Of a stretch of 54,386 bases of DNA, positions 40,404 to 45,362 are shown piece by piece (position 1 is the stretch's first letter; each line of letters begins with the position of its first letter). The notes beneath the pieces were generated by a model, which had not been told where the DNA came from, did not search any database, and was given only the letters and a program-made list of their open reading frames with translations. The position numbers were made by a program, and so were the translations under genes. The DNA comes from an uncultured Mediterraneibacter sp. (GTDB taxonomy: Bacteria; Bacillota; Clostridia; Lachnospirales; Lachnospiraceae): assembly GCA_944376695.1 (NCBI GenBank), contig CALWDM010000009.1:1-54386 (forward strand), in the 5' to 3' direction.

Positions 40404-40416
40404 GCTCAAGCCATGC

Positions 40417-40481
40417 GCAAGAAGAAAAGAAGAGGACCTCATCGTGCTCGCACGAATGAGGTCCTCTTCTTTTCTTCTTGC
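40417..40481 (+). terminator. Very long perfect hairpin after the SNF gene
   Basis: A perfect 26-bp stem (40417-40442 with 40456-40481) extends by four more pairs (CGTG/CACG, with one bulged A) to a CTCG loop. The arm starts GCAAGAAGAAAAGAAGAGG. Its T-rich side (TTCTTTTCTTCTT) is purine/pyrimidine-biased. A single-strand terminator is likely, but its length is unusual. It reads equally on the opposite strand. Confidence 0.7.
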
Positions 40482-40488
40482 ATAGGGC

Positions 40489-40610
40489 GCAGCCCGTGAG
40501 CGAGATGAAGCGGAGCGGAATCGAGCTGCATGGCGTGAGCCGGACGGCGGGAAGAGCAGCCCGTGAGCGAGATGAAGCGGAGCGGAATCGAGCTGCATGG
40601 CATGAGCCGG
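40489..40610. repeat. Direct repeat, two 55-bp copies 67 bp apart
   Basis: The unit GCAGCCCGTGAGCGAGATG... (55 bp) at 40489-40543 recurs at 40556-40610 with one mismatch. It sits right after the long hairpin and before the MerR operon promoter. No open frame is convincing. Confidence 0.85.
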
Positions 40611-40676
40611 CCGGGAGAGGAGCGCAGCCTGATGGCTGAACTGATTGTGATTTTTCCTGGAAAACCCGAAAAACAC

Positions 40677-40707
40677 TTGACTGTATACCAGTTATATACC
40701 TTAAGAT
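40677..40707 (+). promoter_or_regulatory. MerR-type promoter with 19-bp spacer
   Basis: TTGACT (40677-40682) and TAAGAT (40702-40707) are separated by 19 bp. The spacer holds GTATACCAGTTATATAC, with an inverted GTATA/TATAC pair. MerR-family regulators work on such over-long spacers, and the first gene downstream encodes a MerR domain. The start codon is 110 bp further on. Confidence 0.7.
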
Positions 40708-40816
40708 ATCCCCATATTCAGGCAGGGTGTTGCCCCGCCTGGAAGCAAGAAGAAATACCATAGTTTCTTTCTTTAATGCGCATGCCAGGTAATACAAATG
40801 TAAGGGAGGTGCAGGC

Positions 40817-42841
40817 TTGAATACAAAGCAAGTAGAAGAGCTGACAGGGATGTCCCGGCAGAACATCCGTTATTATGAACGGATGGGGCTTCTCGAGCCG
40901 GCGAGGGAAGACGGGAATGCCTACCGGGATTATTCAGAAGAAGATGTCAGGAGACTGAAACTGATCAAGATGCTCAGGATGCTCGACATGTCTCTGAAAG
41001 ATATAGATGATATAATAAACGGAAATGTTTCTTTGAAGTCTTCTGTAAAACACCAGAGAGAAAATCTGCAGACCCATCAGAAACAGCTCCAGGCGGCGAT
41101 CGATGTCTGCGCCAGTATAGGCAGGGAAAAAGGCGAGGACCTGGATGTAGACACCTATCTGAGGCGCATGGAGGACATGGAGCGCAGCGGCGGTGTCTTC
41201 GCCCGGTTTGTGGATGACTATAAGCAGATAGTCCAGGACGAAGAAGAACGCAAATTTTCTTTTTATGCAGACTTCCCGGTAAACACTCCGGCGATGCTTG
41301 AAAAGGCGCTCCGTGAATATGCCTCAGAGCGGGAGCTCCGGTTCCATATGGAAAAAAGAGGGAAATATCCGGAATTCAGGCTTGGGGACCACACATACAC
41401 CGCTGTCAGGCTGCTGGAAAAGAAAAAAGGAAACAAAGAGGATCCAGCGGTACGCGTTATCTGTGAGCGGAAGGAGAAGGCCACGGGCGGCAGGGACATG
41501 AAGATCCCGGCTAAGAGGCGAAGGATGCTCCGGGGGATCCATATCCTGGCGACCAATATACGCAGGCACAGAAACAGGACGCTGCTGAACCTTGTACTCA
41601 GTGCGCTGGCGGTCACAGTGCTGTCATTTTATCTGGGAAATATCCGAAGCACAGAGCAGATACTGGAAAACGCACCGGAATCTTATGAGATCACAGGGGA
41701 AATCTGGAACGTGTGCGGCGAGTCAGACCATGGATTATTTATCTCCCATCAGGTGCTGGAAGATCTGTACAGATCAGAACGGATCGGCGATATCGCGGAA
41801 AGTGCCGAGCTGATGGGGAATCTGTCTGATGGGATGGATCTGTCCGGCGGGATGGATCTATCCGGTGGGACGGATCTGCCCGATGGCGAAACACAGGCTG
41901 GCAGCTCATCGGCTGAGGGCGGTGGAGTGCCGGATACGGTATCCCTGCTGGGGATCAACAGGACAGAGTGCGTCCGGGGATTGTCGGAGGAAGATATTAC
42001 GTGGGAGAGCGGACAAGACAAAACCGGAGAAGAGTGGGAAGGATTCCTGAAAAGCAGTTCTGACTGTATCCTGAGTGAGGCGTTTGCGGAAAAAACAGGG
42101 CTGTCTGCGGGCGATACGGCAGAGTTCAGCCTGGCGCGTTACTCACAGGGGCTGGCAGGAGTGACCCTGGAGAGACAGGAGCTTGCGCCGGAAGAATTCC
42201 ACATTGCGGGCATTTATAAGGAAGATCCCGACAGGGAAGAGGAAAATCCGGATATCCTGCTCCCTCTGGACGCGGTGAAGGCAATCTATGAGAAAAATGA
42301 CATTGTCTATTTTGCGTCCGCGCTTTCTTTCCGGGTGACAAAGCCCATGGAGCTCAATGAAGTCAAAGAGGAGCTGAAGGATGCGGGACTGAAAGAGATC
42401 ATATACGGGTCGCCCAGGTCCTACGCCGGGATCGGACTGAAGCTGACGGATACAGAATTTATCCATTCCACGGAGAGTGCGGACCGCAGCCTGGCGCTGC
42501 TGGAGAGTTTCCTGCCATTTATGTTCGTCATCATAGCGGCAGCGGGGTATATCATCCCAAGTCTTTTGTTCCAGAACAGGCGGGAGGAATATGCGGTCAT
42601 GCGCGCTCTGGGCACGGGGAGATGCTTCTGCAGCCTGCTGTTCTATATTGAGCACATCATACCCGCGGCAGCGGGGGCACTGGCCGGAGCGGCAGCTGGG
42701 ATAGTACTGGGAGCTGTGGATCCTGTGAGCGGGGCAGTTGTCTGGGGACTCTACCTGGTATTTTATATGCTTGGTGCCGGGGCGGCGATGTGGCGGTTTG
42801 GAAGATTCAGTATTGCGGCTGTGTTGTCACACAGAGATTGA
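40817..42841 (+). CDS. MerR DNA-binding domain fused to FtsX/MacB-type ABC permease
   Basis: A 674-residue fusion in one uninterrupted frame. Residues 1-75 are a MerR winged helix-turn-helix (TKQVEELTGMSRQNIRYYERMGLLEP). Residues 76-245 are a helical linker domain with FARFVDDYKQIVQDEEERKFSF, known from some Firmicute MerR proteins. TM1 lies near 256-277. A large extracytoplasmic domain (280-560) contains an 18-nt tandem repeat, and three helices (about 565-587, 605-634, 640-660) form an FtsX-like end. The N-terminus of FtsX permeases is cytoplasmic, so the DNA-binding part is placed correctly. The start is TTG 40817 after GGGAGGTGCAGG. Next in the operon are an ABC ATPase and a second permease. 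Confidence 0.85.
   Translation: MNTKQVEELTGMSRQNIRYYERMGLLEPAREDGNAYRDYSEEDVRRLKLIKMLRMLDMSLKDIDDIINGNVSLKSSVKHQRENLQTHQKQLQAAIDVCASIGREKGEDLDVDTYLRRMEDMERSGGVFARFVDDYKQIVQDEEERKFSFYADFPVNTPAMLEKALREYASERELRFHMEKRGKYPEFRLGDHTYTAVRLLEKKKGNKEDPAVRVICERKEKATGGRDMKIPAKRRRMLRGIHILATNIRRHRNRTLLNLVLSALAVTVLSFYLGNIRSTEQILENAPESYEITGEIWNVCGESDHGLFISHQVLEDLYRSERIGDIAESAELMGNLSDGMDLSGGMDLSGGTDLPDGETQAGSSSAEGGGVPDTVSLLGINRTECVRGLSEEDITWESGQDKTGEEWEGFLKSSSDCILSEAFAEKTGLSAGDTAEFSLARYSQGLAGVTLERQELAPEEFHIAGIYKEDPDREEENPDILLPLDAVKAIYEKNDIVYFASALSFRVTKPMELNEVKEELKDAGLKEIIYGSPRSYAGIGLKLTDTEFIHSTESADRSLALLESFLPFMFVIIAAAGYIIPSLLFQNRREEYAVMRALGTGRCFCSLLFYIEHIIPAAAGALAGAAAGIVLGAVDPVSGAVVWGLYLVFYMLGAGAAMWRFGRFSIAAVLSHRD
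41825..41887 (+). repeat. 18-nt coding tandem repeat in the fusion permease
   Basis: Three and a half copies of an 18-nt unit encode SDGMDL, SGGMDL, SGGTDL and PDG (residues 337-357). This lies in the extracytoplasmic domain, where length variation would be tolerated. The frame is kept. Confidence 0.85.
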
Positions 42842-43522: not shown

Positions 43523-43532
43523 GGTGTTGAGG

Positions 43533-45362
43533 ATGACATTCTATTACAGTATAAAACAGATGCACCGGAGCCCTCTGAAAAGCCTGCTGTTCGCTGTCCT
43601 CATCGCCGTGTGCGCCTTCTGCCTTTCGCTGGGAGGAGCTCTGTGGTACATGGGGAGCAGCGGCTTTCAGGATTTCGACGGGTTGTATACCACCATCGGG
43701 ACAGTTGAGCAGAAATATGAAGGCACAGAGGTGCGCTCGAGCTGGGATCCGGAAACACAGGCATACGAGTATTACAGCGGGGGATATTACGGAGAATGGA
43801 TCCCGGAAGATGTCCTGGATTTTAAAGGGGCGGACTATATTTTGAAGCCCAGGCAGCGCCCTTATTTCGGAGCATATATCGAAGACCTGTATCACGGGAT
43901 CGGGAGCGCGGACATGGGAGTCGTGGAAGCCACGCCGCTCAAGACGGGAGCAATGTACCCTTCTCTGCCCATGCGCGTGACACGCGTGCTGGAGGGGACG
44001 ATGCAGGAAGGGGAAATCTTCTATCTCTGCGACCATCAGAGCGAGGAACCGGCTGTCCTGGAGTCGGGAAAAACGTATGTGATGCAGCTTTCCATGTTCG
44101 GGACAGCGCATGGGCCCAATGTCCCGGCGGGAGAACAGACCATGGAGTACCTTCTCTCTTCAGGGATCGCATCCACTCAGTACACGATCGACATGGAGCC
44201 TGTGTATGACCCCGTCACGGAAGAGGACCGCTGGTATGATGAGGTGACGGATGGATTTTATGAGACTGAGAGAGGGAAGCGCTGGCTTGCGCTCAGCAGT
44301 TACCAGGATTACAGTATGCGCACGATCCCGGTCCAGCCCACGGATGGGACGAAGCTGCTCATGCATTTCTATAACGGGGAAGCGCAGATCACAGAGGGGC
44401 GCGACATCACAGAAGAGGAATATGAGGACGGCGCAAAGGTCTGCCTGATGCCTGAAATACTGGCGATGAGACTGGGAAAGAAGGTCGGGGATACACTGAC
44501 CCTGCCGCTTTATTATGCCGATTATTCCCGGGCGGTAGGGGACGCCTTCATGCTGGGTGTGCGCAGCCACGTCTCTGTGAATCTTCTGAATGCGGAAGGA
44601 GAGATATACCAGATATTCAATGAGCAGGAGTACGAGATCGTCGGGCTCTATACGGCGGAAGATAAGGGATCGGGCAGTTATTCCGCAGGGGAGTATGAGG
44701 TGGTCATCCCGTGGAACGCGGTTCCGGAAAACTGCTGGGAAGATAATATCGCAGGGGCAGGGGTCATGAAGGGAGCGGATACGTCCTTTCAGATACCGAA
44801 TGGGACAGTGGAAGAATTTCGGGAAAAGTGGGATGCGCTCGGCATCGATGACCTGGAGATCCGCTTTTATGATATGGGCTACACCCAGCTCAAGGACAGC
44901 CTGGAGAACCGTCAGCTCATGTCAGCAATCTTTCTCCTAAGCGGGGGTGTGATGGTAGTTCTGATCTTATGCTTTTTCTCGAGCCTGTTTATCACCGGGC
45001 AGAAAGAGCGTATCGCTGTGGAAAGGCTGATGGGACGGACAAAACGCCAGTGCGCGTTATCTATTCTGTCCGGAATGCTTGTCTTAAGCGCGGCAGGATG
45101 TATTGTGGGGAGCGCGGCGGGCTGGCTTGCCTCGGGAAAAGCCGCGCAGGAAGCCGGGGATACCCTGGAGTTTGCCCGGACGTACAGCGACAATGCGATC
45201 GCAAACACAGAGCCGGAAGACACAGGAGAGCCTCCGGGAGCAGTACTGCCCTGTGTCACGGGAGGCATGCTACTGGCGGCGTCGGTGGTGATCTCAGCAG
45301 GGTATATGGGAAGAGTGCTCAGGAAGGAACCGCTGAGAATGCTGGGGGAGATAGAGGAATAA
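43533..45362 (+). CDS. FtsX-like ABC permease
   Basis: A 609-residue permease. The first helix is at about 15-38 (SLLFAVLIAVCAFCLSLGGALWYMG). A large extracytoplasmic domain of about 420 residues is rich in aromatic and acidic residues, and three C-terminal helices with an EEIEE end complete the FtsX/MacB topology. ATG 43533 has GAGGTG before it; GTG 43524 is a possible earlier start. It probably pairs with the MerR-FtsX protein as a heterodimer. The transported or sensed molecule is unknown. Confidence 0.9.
   Translation: MTFYYSIKQMHRSPLKSLLFAVLIAVCAFCLSLGGALWYMGSSGFQDFDGLYTTIGTVEQKYEGTEVRSSWDPETQAYEYYSGGYYGEWIPEDVLDFKGADYILKPRQRPYFGAYIEDLYHGIGSADMGVVEATPLKTGAMYPSLPMRVTRVLEGTMQEGEIFYLCDHQSEEPAVLESGKTYVMQLSMFGTAHGPNVPAGEQTMEYLLSSGIASTQYTIDMEPVYDPVTEEDRWYDEVTDGFYETERGKRWLALSSYQDYSMRTIPVQPTDGTKLLMHFYNGEAQITEGRDITEEEYEDGAKVCLMPEILAMRLGKKVGDTLTLPLYYADYSRAVGDAFMLGVRSHVSVNLLNAEGEIYQIFNEQEYEIVGLYTAEDKGSGSYSAGEYEVVIPWNAVPENCWEDNIAGAGVMKGADTSFQIPNGTVEEFREKWDALGIDDLEIRFYDMGYTQLKDSLENRQLMSAIFLLSGGVMVVLILCFFSSLFITGQKERIAVERLMGRTKRQCALSILSGMLVLSAAGCIVGSAAGWLASGKAAQEAGDTLEFARTYSDNAIANTEPEDTGEPPGAVLPCVTGGMLLAASVVISAGYMGRVLRKEPLRMLGEIEE

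Follow-up and report, generated by a model that had tools for sequence, protein, structure and literature searches.

A putative self-regulating ABC permease carrying its own MerR DNA-binding domain in Mediterraneibacter and other genera of its family

A single gene of an uncultured Mediterraneibacter sp. (Lachnospiraceae) joins a MerR-type winged helix to an FtsX-type ABC permease, and we consider it likely, with a probability of roughly two in three, that its product is a membrane-embedded, self-regulating one-component MerR regulator within a type VII (LolCDE/MacB-like) ABC complex. The gene lies in the window, that is, the whole stretch of 54,386 nucleotides that was analyzed (contig CALWDM010000009.1, assembly GCA_944376695.1). 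Such an ABC complex would probably raise or lower the expression of its own genes, with no separate regulator involved. The narrower proposal of the preliminary description, that the permease acts as a membrane-bound transcription factor on its own promoter, is well supported at the sequence level, because all 23 fusion loci conserve both the winged helix and a promoter with a 19-bp spacer, and this promoter form is absent from five of five relatives without the MerR part. Both the domains and the promoter logic are known; it is the joining of a transcription factor to an ABC permease that we did not find described. No description of a MerR-FtsX fusion appeared in the titles or abstract beginnings among the matches listed (full-text literature, with most subscription papers outside its reach). 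The main text of a review on MerR regulators contains neither the word 'membrane' nor 'permease' (PMC9909328), and MerR and DNA-binding are absent from the main text of a review on alternative functions of ABC transporters (PMC7828314).

Architecture of the fusion protein and its operon

The frame is open throughout (Table 1) and, as initially described, encodes a MerR part, a linker domain and a four-helix FtsX-type permease in one chain, as judged from Pfam and an AlphaFold2 model. Three families had been named for a domain search, two of which were recovered: MerR_1 clearly over its cut-off (residues 1-68, E = 2.1e-19; also matched in 25 of 25 members of alignment A2), and FtsX just above it (residues 568-634, E = 8.8e-6, 26.2 bits vs 25.5). 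The third, MacB_PCD, gave no match in the fusion protein at E ≤ 0.1. MerR-DNA-bind stayed under its cut-off (residues 44-96; 22.9 vs 25.4), the alpha/beta domain of the window protein was reached by no Pfam family, and NCBIfam models matched the MerR part or the permease part separately, none of them both.

Table 1. Features of the fusion operon in the window
Feature	Coordinates	Strand	Details and basis
MerR-type promoter/operator	40677..40707	+	-35 TTGACT, 19-bp spacer GTATACCAGTTATATACCT, -10 TAAGAT
Ribosome-binding site GGGAGG	40804..40809	+	Read from sequence, ahead of TTG start
MerR-FtsX fusion permease	40817..42841	+	674 aa, single open frame, TTG start
MerR winged helix, residues 1-70	40817..41026	+	Pfam MerR_1 1-68, fold match, conservation
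Predicted dimerisation helix region, residues 71-110 (helix 73-103)	41027..41146	+	AlphaFold2
Cytoplasmic region, residues 111-230, with alpha/beta domain 146-218	41147..41506	+	AlphaFold2; common to MerR proteins of about 300 aa with a short membrane tail
Transmembrane helix 1 (TM1), about residues 256-276	41582..41644	+	AlphaFold2, K+R counts
Extracellular domain, residues 277-555	41645..42481	+	AlphaFold2, Foldseek
Transmembrane helices 2-4, residues 556-660	42482..42796	+	Pfam FtsX 568-634, AlphaFold2
ABC ATPase (LolD/FtsE-like), 223 aa	42851..43522	+	Pfam, NCBIfam, catalytic motifs
Second FtsX permease, 612 aa, large extracellular domain	43524..45362	+	Pfam

The AlphaFold2 model, built from 21 fusions (mean pLDDT 74.5, pTM 0.47), contains four long helices of membrane type that follow the FtsX order, one at residues 252-284 and three (546-586, 602-630 and 636-661) after the large extracellular domain, with a further helix (232-250) immediately ahead of TM1. 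With its low pTM, the model does not predict where the MerR part lies with respect to the membrane. The predicted helix 73-103 aligns with the long dimerisation helix that follows the winged helix in MtaN, CadR and CueR. Foldseek returned LolC/LolE and MacB chains as top matches (E down to 3.6e-14) and CueR and CadR for the N-terminus; over the whole chain, the TM-scores stay low, at 0.2-0.3 by query length, and the rmsd is mostly 12-17, because the domains are placed differently. Structure comparisons of the N-terminal part cover almost only residues 1-118 and hardly touch the alpha/beta domain, for which an overlap with the BmrR ligand domain was dropped at an rmsd above 20. Averaged over 21 fusions, the K+R count is 8.5 in the 25 residues before TM1 vs 2.4 in the 25 residues after it, so that the N-terminus should be cytoplasmic by the positive-inside pattern, in line with the earlier expectation. 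Translation of the window fusion might also begin internally, at Met237 just before TM1, where an SD-like stretch is present; SD-backed internal starts occur in this region, at differing places, in 9 of the 21 fusions, the window included. An internal start yielding a free permease is conceivable in the window.

The next two genes, separated from the fusion and from each other by 9 and 1 bases, respectively, encode the matching ATPase and second permease that had been reported from the letters. The Walker A, signature, Walker B and H-loop letters of the ATPase are all intact, and its best-scoring NCBIfam models are LolD and FtsE, both below their cut-offs. MacB_PCD lies just under the Pfam cut-off in the second permease (25.9 vs 27), each of the two permeases has about four hydrophobic helices, and none of the three operon genes encodes a MacA-like adaptor.

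Ahead of the fusion in the window lies a gene for an SNF-family transporter (Pfam). Between this gene and the operon, positions 40410-40488 form a 33-nt inverted repeat (91% complementary, 13-nt loop), perhaps a two-way terminator, and positions 40489-40614, upstream of the promoter, hold two 59-nt direct repeats that are 97% alike and start 67 bases apart. A consensus scan of the region gave two promoter-like sites (3.9 expected) and nine terminator-like sites (4.0 expected), none of them at the operon ends relied on here.

Promoter, distribution and conservation

The preliminary description had placed a promoter upstream of the fusion, and the site is present, with a 19-bp spacer and conservation across genera. 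Inside the spacer, a 17-base dyad (40683-40699) carries GTATA and TATAC at its ends; passages of three papers give a 19-bp spacer holding a palindrome as the mark of MerR-controlled promoters (PMC11049809, PMC1526738, PMC8113463). We found TTGACT-N19-TANNNT upstream of all 23 fusions (16 upstream regions located by an N-terminus pattern, the other 7 by coordinates), its first base lying 53-140 bases before the start codon, and the nine letters TTGACTGTA were identical in 23 of 23 loci; the form was fixed after the first copies had been seen. Shuffled upstream regions contained it in 11 of 4600 cases. The 31 promoter columns hold 48 bits, 18 of which are set by the form searched for, and the flanks hold 0-1.7 bits per column. 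Dyad scores in the fusion loci range from 3 to 6 of 8 positions (shuffled mean 2.3, sd 1.3), with a weak dyad of 3 in G280 and G453. A looser search (TTG and 16-20 bp spacers) recovered the 19-bp box in all 23 loci, together with a second, weaker 20-bp match in the window genome, G043 and G030, and a standard sigma-70 scan, limited to spacers of 16-18 bp, did not list the window promoter.

Within the window, a search allowing up to three mismatches still returned this single site, and the exact box occurs once in the genome. With one mismatch allowed, the genome holds 10 sites vs 9 for a backward-read control, so that the exact box alone is informative; the other nine one-mismatch sites score 0-3 of 8 for the dyad, vs 6 for the window site. 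Across the family, the exact box was found in 84 of 200 genomes, often at sites without a seen tie to a MerR gene (seven regions inspected). Similar boxes stand ahead of other MerR genes of the family (G066, G081 and G087, by positions; G245; G199), which indicates that the box belongs to a wider MerR subgroup.

A search for the same architecture in other genomes, suggested at the outset, identified the fusion in 23 genomes spanning 8 genera, comprising 15 of the 58 searched genomes of the genus and 8 genomes of other genera, with identity down to 31%. The whole-protein search (195 genomes, including the window genome) returned the window genome itself, 14 of the 57 other genomes of the genus and one of another genus (G093). 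The second-permease search (397 family genomes, E ≤ 1e-40), which would miss fusions having other partners, yielded 13 genomes with a close relative, of which nine are fused (the window genome, G093, G484, G346, G236, G295, G438, G280 and G453) and four are not (G085, G209, G302 and G405). The gene order of fusion, ATPase and permease is retained in all eight loci from other genera, and their surroundings differ. Among the named matches are Lachnoclostridium sp. An76 (97%), Candidatus Mediterraneibacter tabaqchaliae (96-97%) and a Hespellia sp. MAG (32%). The 23 fusions are not independent, since the copies of the window genome, G043 and G030 are near-identical, and that of G030 is split over two contigs. 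In G020 (L048:1489-2805), the fusion ends at 438 aa, after the MerR part, TM1 and part of the extracellular domain; the promoter box is kept, and no relative of the operon ATPase or second permease was found directly after it.

Beyond the family, a fusion-protein search of 398 phylum genomes, restricted to the best two candidates per genome and therefore liable to misses, returned no further fusion. A search of 291 class genomes with the second permease gave one relative, which lacks the fusion. None of the 31 pattern matches in viral contigs was a relative, and plasmids gave none at E ≤ 1e-8. A sequencing or assembly error that merged two genes, or homologues always split into MerR and permease, would have refuted the preliminary reading of the window frame; with the same fusion in 23 genomes, neither was observed, and an error has a negligible chance of being the cause, given its recurrence in 8 genera and purifying selection in all measurable parts.

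Among the long segments of the fusion, conservation is highest in the winged helix, with a mean identity of 75% among nine representatives of 8 genera, compared with 38-49% in the other segments of at least 20 residues and 59% in the 14-residue C-tail; within the cytoplasmic portion, conservation is lowest in residues 111-235 (39%). Wherever dN/dS could be computed, it stayed below 0.3 for all parts and pairs, which in sequence terms is purifying selection on all measurable parts of the fusion. Of the 7 pairs for which the winged helix gave a value, 6 had their minimum there (the exception being the window vs L005). Alignment A1 comprised 21 of the 23 fusions, leaving out the truncated copy of G020 and the split copy of G030, and the trees include 8 of the 15 same-genus copies. 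In the second-permease tree (21 rows), the 16 fused rows fall on one side of a branch (99/98, starred), with one change. The three-gene tree (20 rows), from which G552 was left out as phmmer found no FtsX partner there, likewise puts the fused rows on one side of a branch (89/89, not starred), and the first-permease tree shows one change (55/70). These unrooted trees fit a single origin of the fusion.

The loci of the MerR-less relatives lacked TTGACT-N19-TANNNT in 5 of 5 cases; in G552 and G209, the upstream region tested precedes the second permease or the ATPase and may not be the operon start. The MerR-less transporter genes of G085 lie behind genes for an OmpR-type response regulator and a histidine kinase. 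No two-component gene was detected by Pfam among two or three neighbours each in G405 (genes of the aldolase and deaminase families and one gene with no Pfam match), G209 (a helix-turn-helix gene, a gene for a P-loop ATPase and again one with no match) and G552, and the G302 locus sits on a short contig with 345 bases upstream. At the G552 locus (L067), a relative of the second permease was present and none of the first was found by phmmer. Upstream on the same strand are a radical SAM gene, another ATPase and two other four-helix proteins, a neighbourhood that hints at peptide-like substrates for that branch.

Proposed mechanism and alternative explanations

In the mechanism that we propose, the N-terminal winged helix would bind the promoter of its own operon, at the dyad within the 19-bp spacer, and keep that promoter poor in the idle state. 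A signal that alters the MerR dimer would then twist the DNA such that polymerase can use the -35 and -10 boxes, and more of the whole three-gene complex would be made. Dimer binding, repression, activation by distortion and autoregulation are taken over here from the MerR family, whose regulators are dimers that activate by DNA distortion according to passages of a review (PMC9909328). Less firmly, we infer that the signal may be the state of the transporter itself, either substrate at the extracellular domain or the ATP cycle, passed on through TM1 and the helix just before it.

LolCDE holds one LolC and one LolE, as also seen in the names of the matched chains. With one of the two permeases carrying a MerR domain in a LolC-LolE-like pairing, a MerR dimer would require either two complexes to come together or the fused permease to pair with itself. 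One form of the mechanism, which we advance tentatively as possible, is that the working membrane ABC complex docks on its own promoter via the MerR domain, that its transport or ATP cycle is read as promoter twist, and that two complexes pair on the DNA. Full-length CadC binds its promoter uncut according to passages of PMC5936718, which provides a precedent for the principle of a membrane-bound regulator.

It is somewhat unlikely, yet deserves weight, that the alpha/beta domain within residues 111-230 is a sensor in its own right, for a bound ligand or for the membrane, with the permease being an effector fused by chance whose transport state goes unread. Residues 1-199 of the fusion share 37-42% identity with proteins of about 300 aa that likewise combine a MerR part with the alpha/beta domain; these sisters differ in that they lack a permease part and close with one or two hydrophobic segments, and the sister loci L039, L040, L041 and L118 contain no relative of the operon ATPase or permeases. 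Because MerR proteins that have no transporter also contain the alpha/beta domain, the signal may be something other than transport. Moreover, 4 of the 12 sisters checked (G084, G183, G009 and G561) have TTGA(C/T)N-N19-TANNNT near the start, the other eight having no box at 16-20 bp, and a thirteenth (G245) has TTGACTGTA-N16-TANNNT 30 bases ahead. On the other side, the low conservation of residues 111-235 across genera is unlike that of a fixed ligand pocket, and the joining to the permease has been retained in 8 genera. Compared in sequence, the fusion looks like a membrane MerR protein whose tail was swapped for a permease.

Release of the MerR part from the membrane by proteolysis near residues 222-229, followed by action as a soluble factor, appears improbable: this stretch is predicted to be flexible (pLDDT under 50), but it is not conserved in the alignment, and CadC works uncut in the passages cited above. 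We regard it as highly improbable that the fused MerR part is a relic, or a regulator of other genes, while a different MerR protein uses the promoter. The genome does encode further MerR-like proteins (two weak hits) and similar boxes precede other MerR genes in the family, but the winged helix has the strongest conservation, and the box goes with the fusion, is absent from the MerR-less relatives and has one exact copy in the genome.

Comparison with known systems and other MerR membrane proteins

With members of the MerR family such as CueR, CadR and MtaN, the fusion shares the winged helix, the predicted dimerisation helix and the 19-bp spacer promoter with its dyad, and it differs in that the MerR part forms the N-terminus of an ABC permease. 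With type VII ABC systems (LolCDE/MacB), it has in common the four-helix FtsX permease, the large domain between TM1 and TM2 and the LolD-like ATPase, and with LolCDE also the set of two permeases and one ATPase; these systems lack its DNA-binding domain, and the fusion operon lacks the MacA-like adaptor. A cytoplasmic N-terminal winged helix, a membrane part and an extracytoplasmic domain in one chain recall CadC and ToxR (CadC layout in passages of PMC5936718). Those regulators, however, combine an OmpR-type winged helix with a single helix and a sensor, whereas the fusion has a MerR-type winged helix and four helices of an ABC permease, and membership of the ToxR/CadC family was rejected on these grounds. 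Passages of the same source put the membrane-integrated share of one-component systems at only 3% and note that sensory functions have been acquired by some membrane transport proteins (PMC5936718).

The preliminary description had further suggested that the fusion replaces the two-component system of Bce modules. One suggestive case, the MerR-less G085 locus with its kinase and response regulator, speaks for this idea, but the likeness to Bce itself fails: BceB has ten helices according to passages of PMC5985334, vs a pair of four-helix permeases here, and the helix number together with the gene set rules out a Bce-type permease. An FtsX-fold transporter with a part in its own regulation is what BceAB-BceRS and the fusion operon share. 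In Bce modules, a sensing transporter is read out by a separate histidine kinase and response regulator, whereas here the transporter subunit and the transcription factor form one chain. The probable binding site can be named to the base and is conserved across genera, and direct control of transcription by the working state of a transporter thereby becomes testable with few proteins and one promoter.

We also observed MerR domains joined to several kinds of membrane module, namely FtsX, RDD and CAAX-protease-like ones. Fusions of MerR to RDD-family membrane domains (322-536 aa; Pfam MerR_1 and RDD) were seen in three genomes (L042:3894-5426, L043:3032-4642 and L055:2761-3729). At L054:3288-4673, the fusion partner of MerR is a protein of about eight hydrophobic helices that gives a CAAX-protease-like (Rce1-like) match over the cut-off. 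The whole-protein search returned many more MerR-matching frames of about 480-560 aa. Finally, six TTGACTGTA-N16-TANNNT boxes lie within about 5.6 kb in G107 (L114:3218-8838), where they surround two MerR genes (products of 292 and 308 aa, judged BmrR-like by eye only) and a gene for a protein with at least 12 hydrophobic segments.
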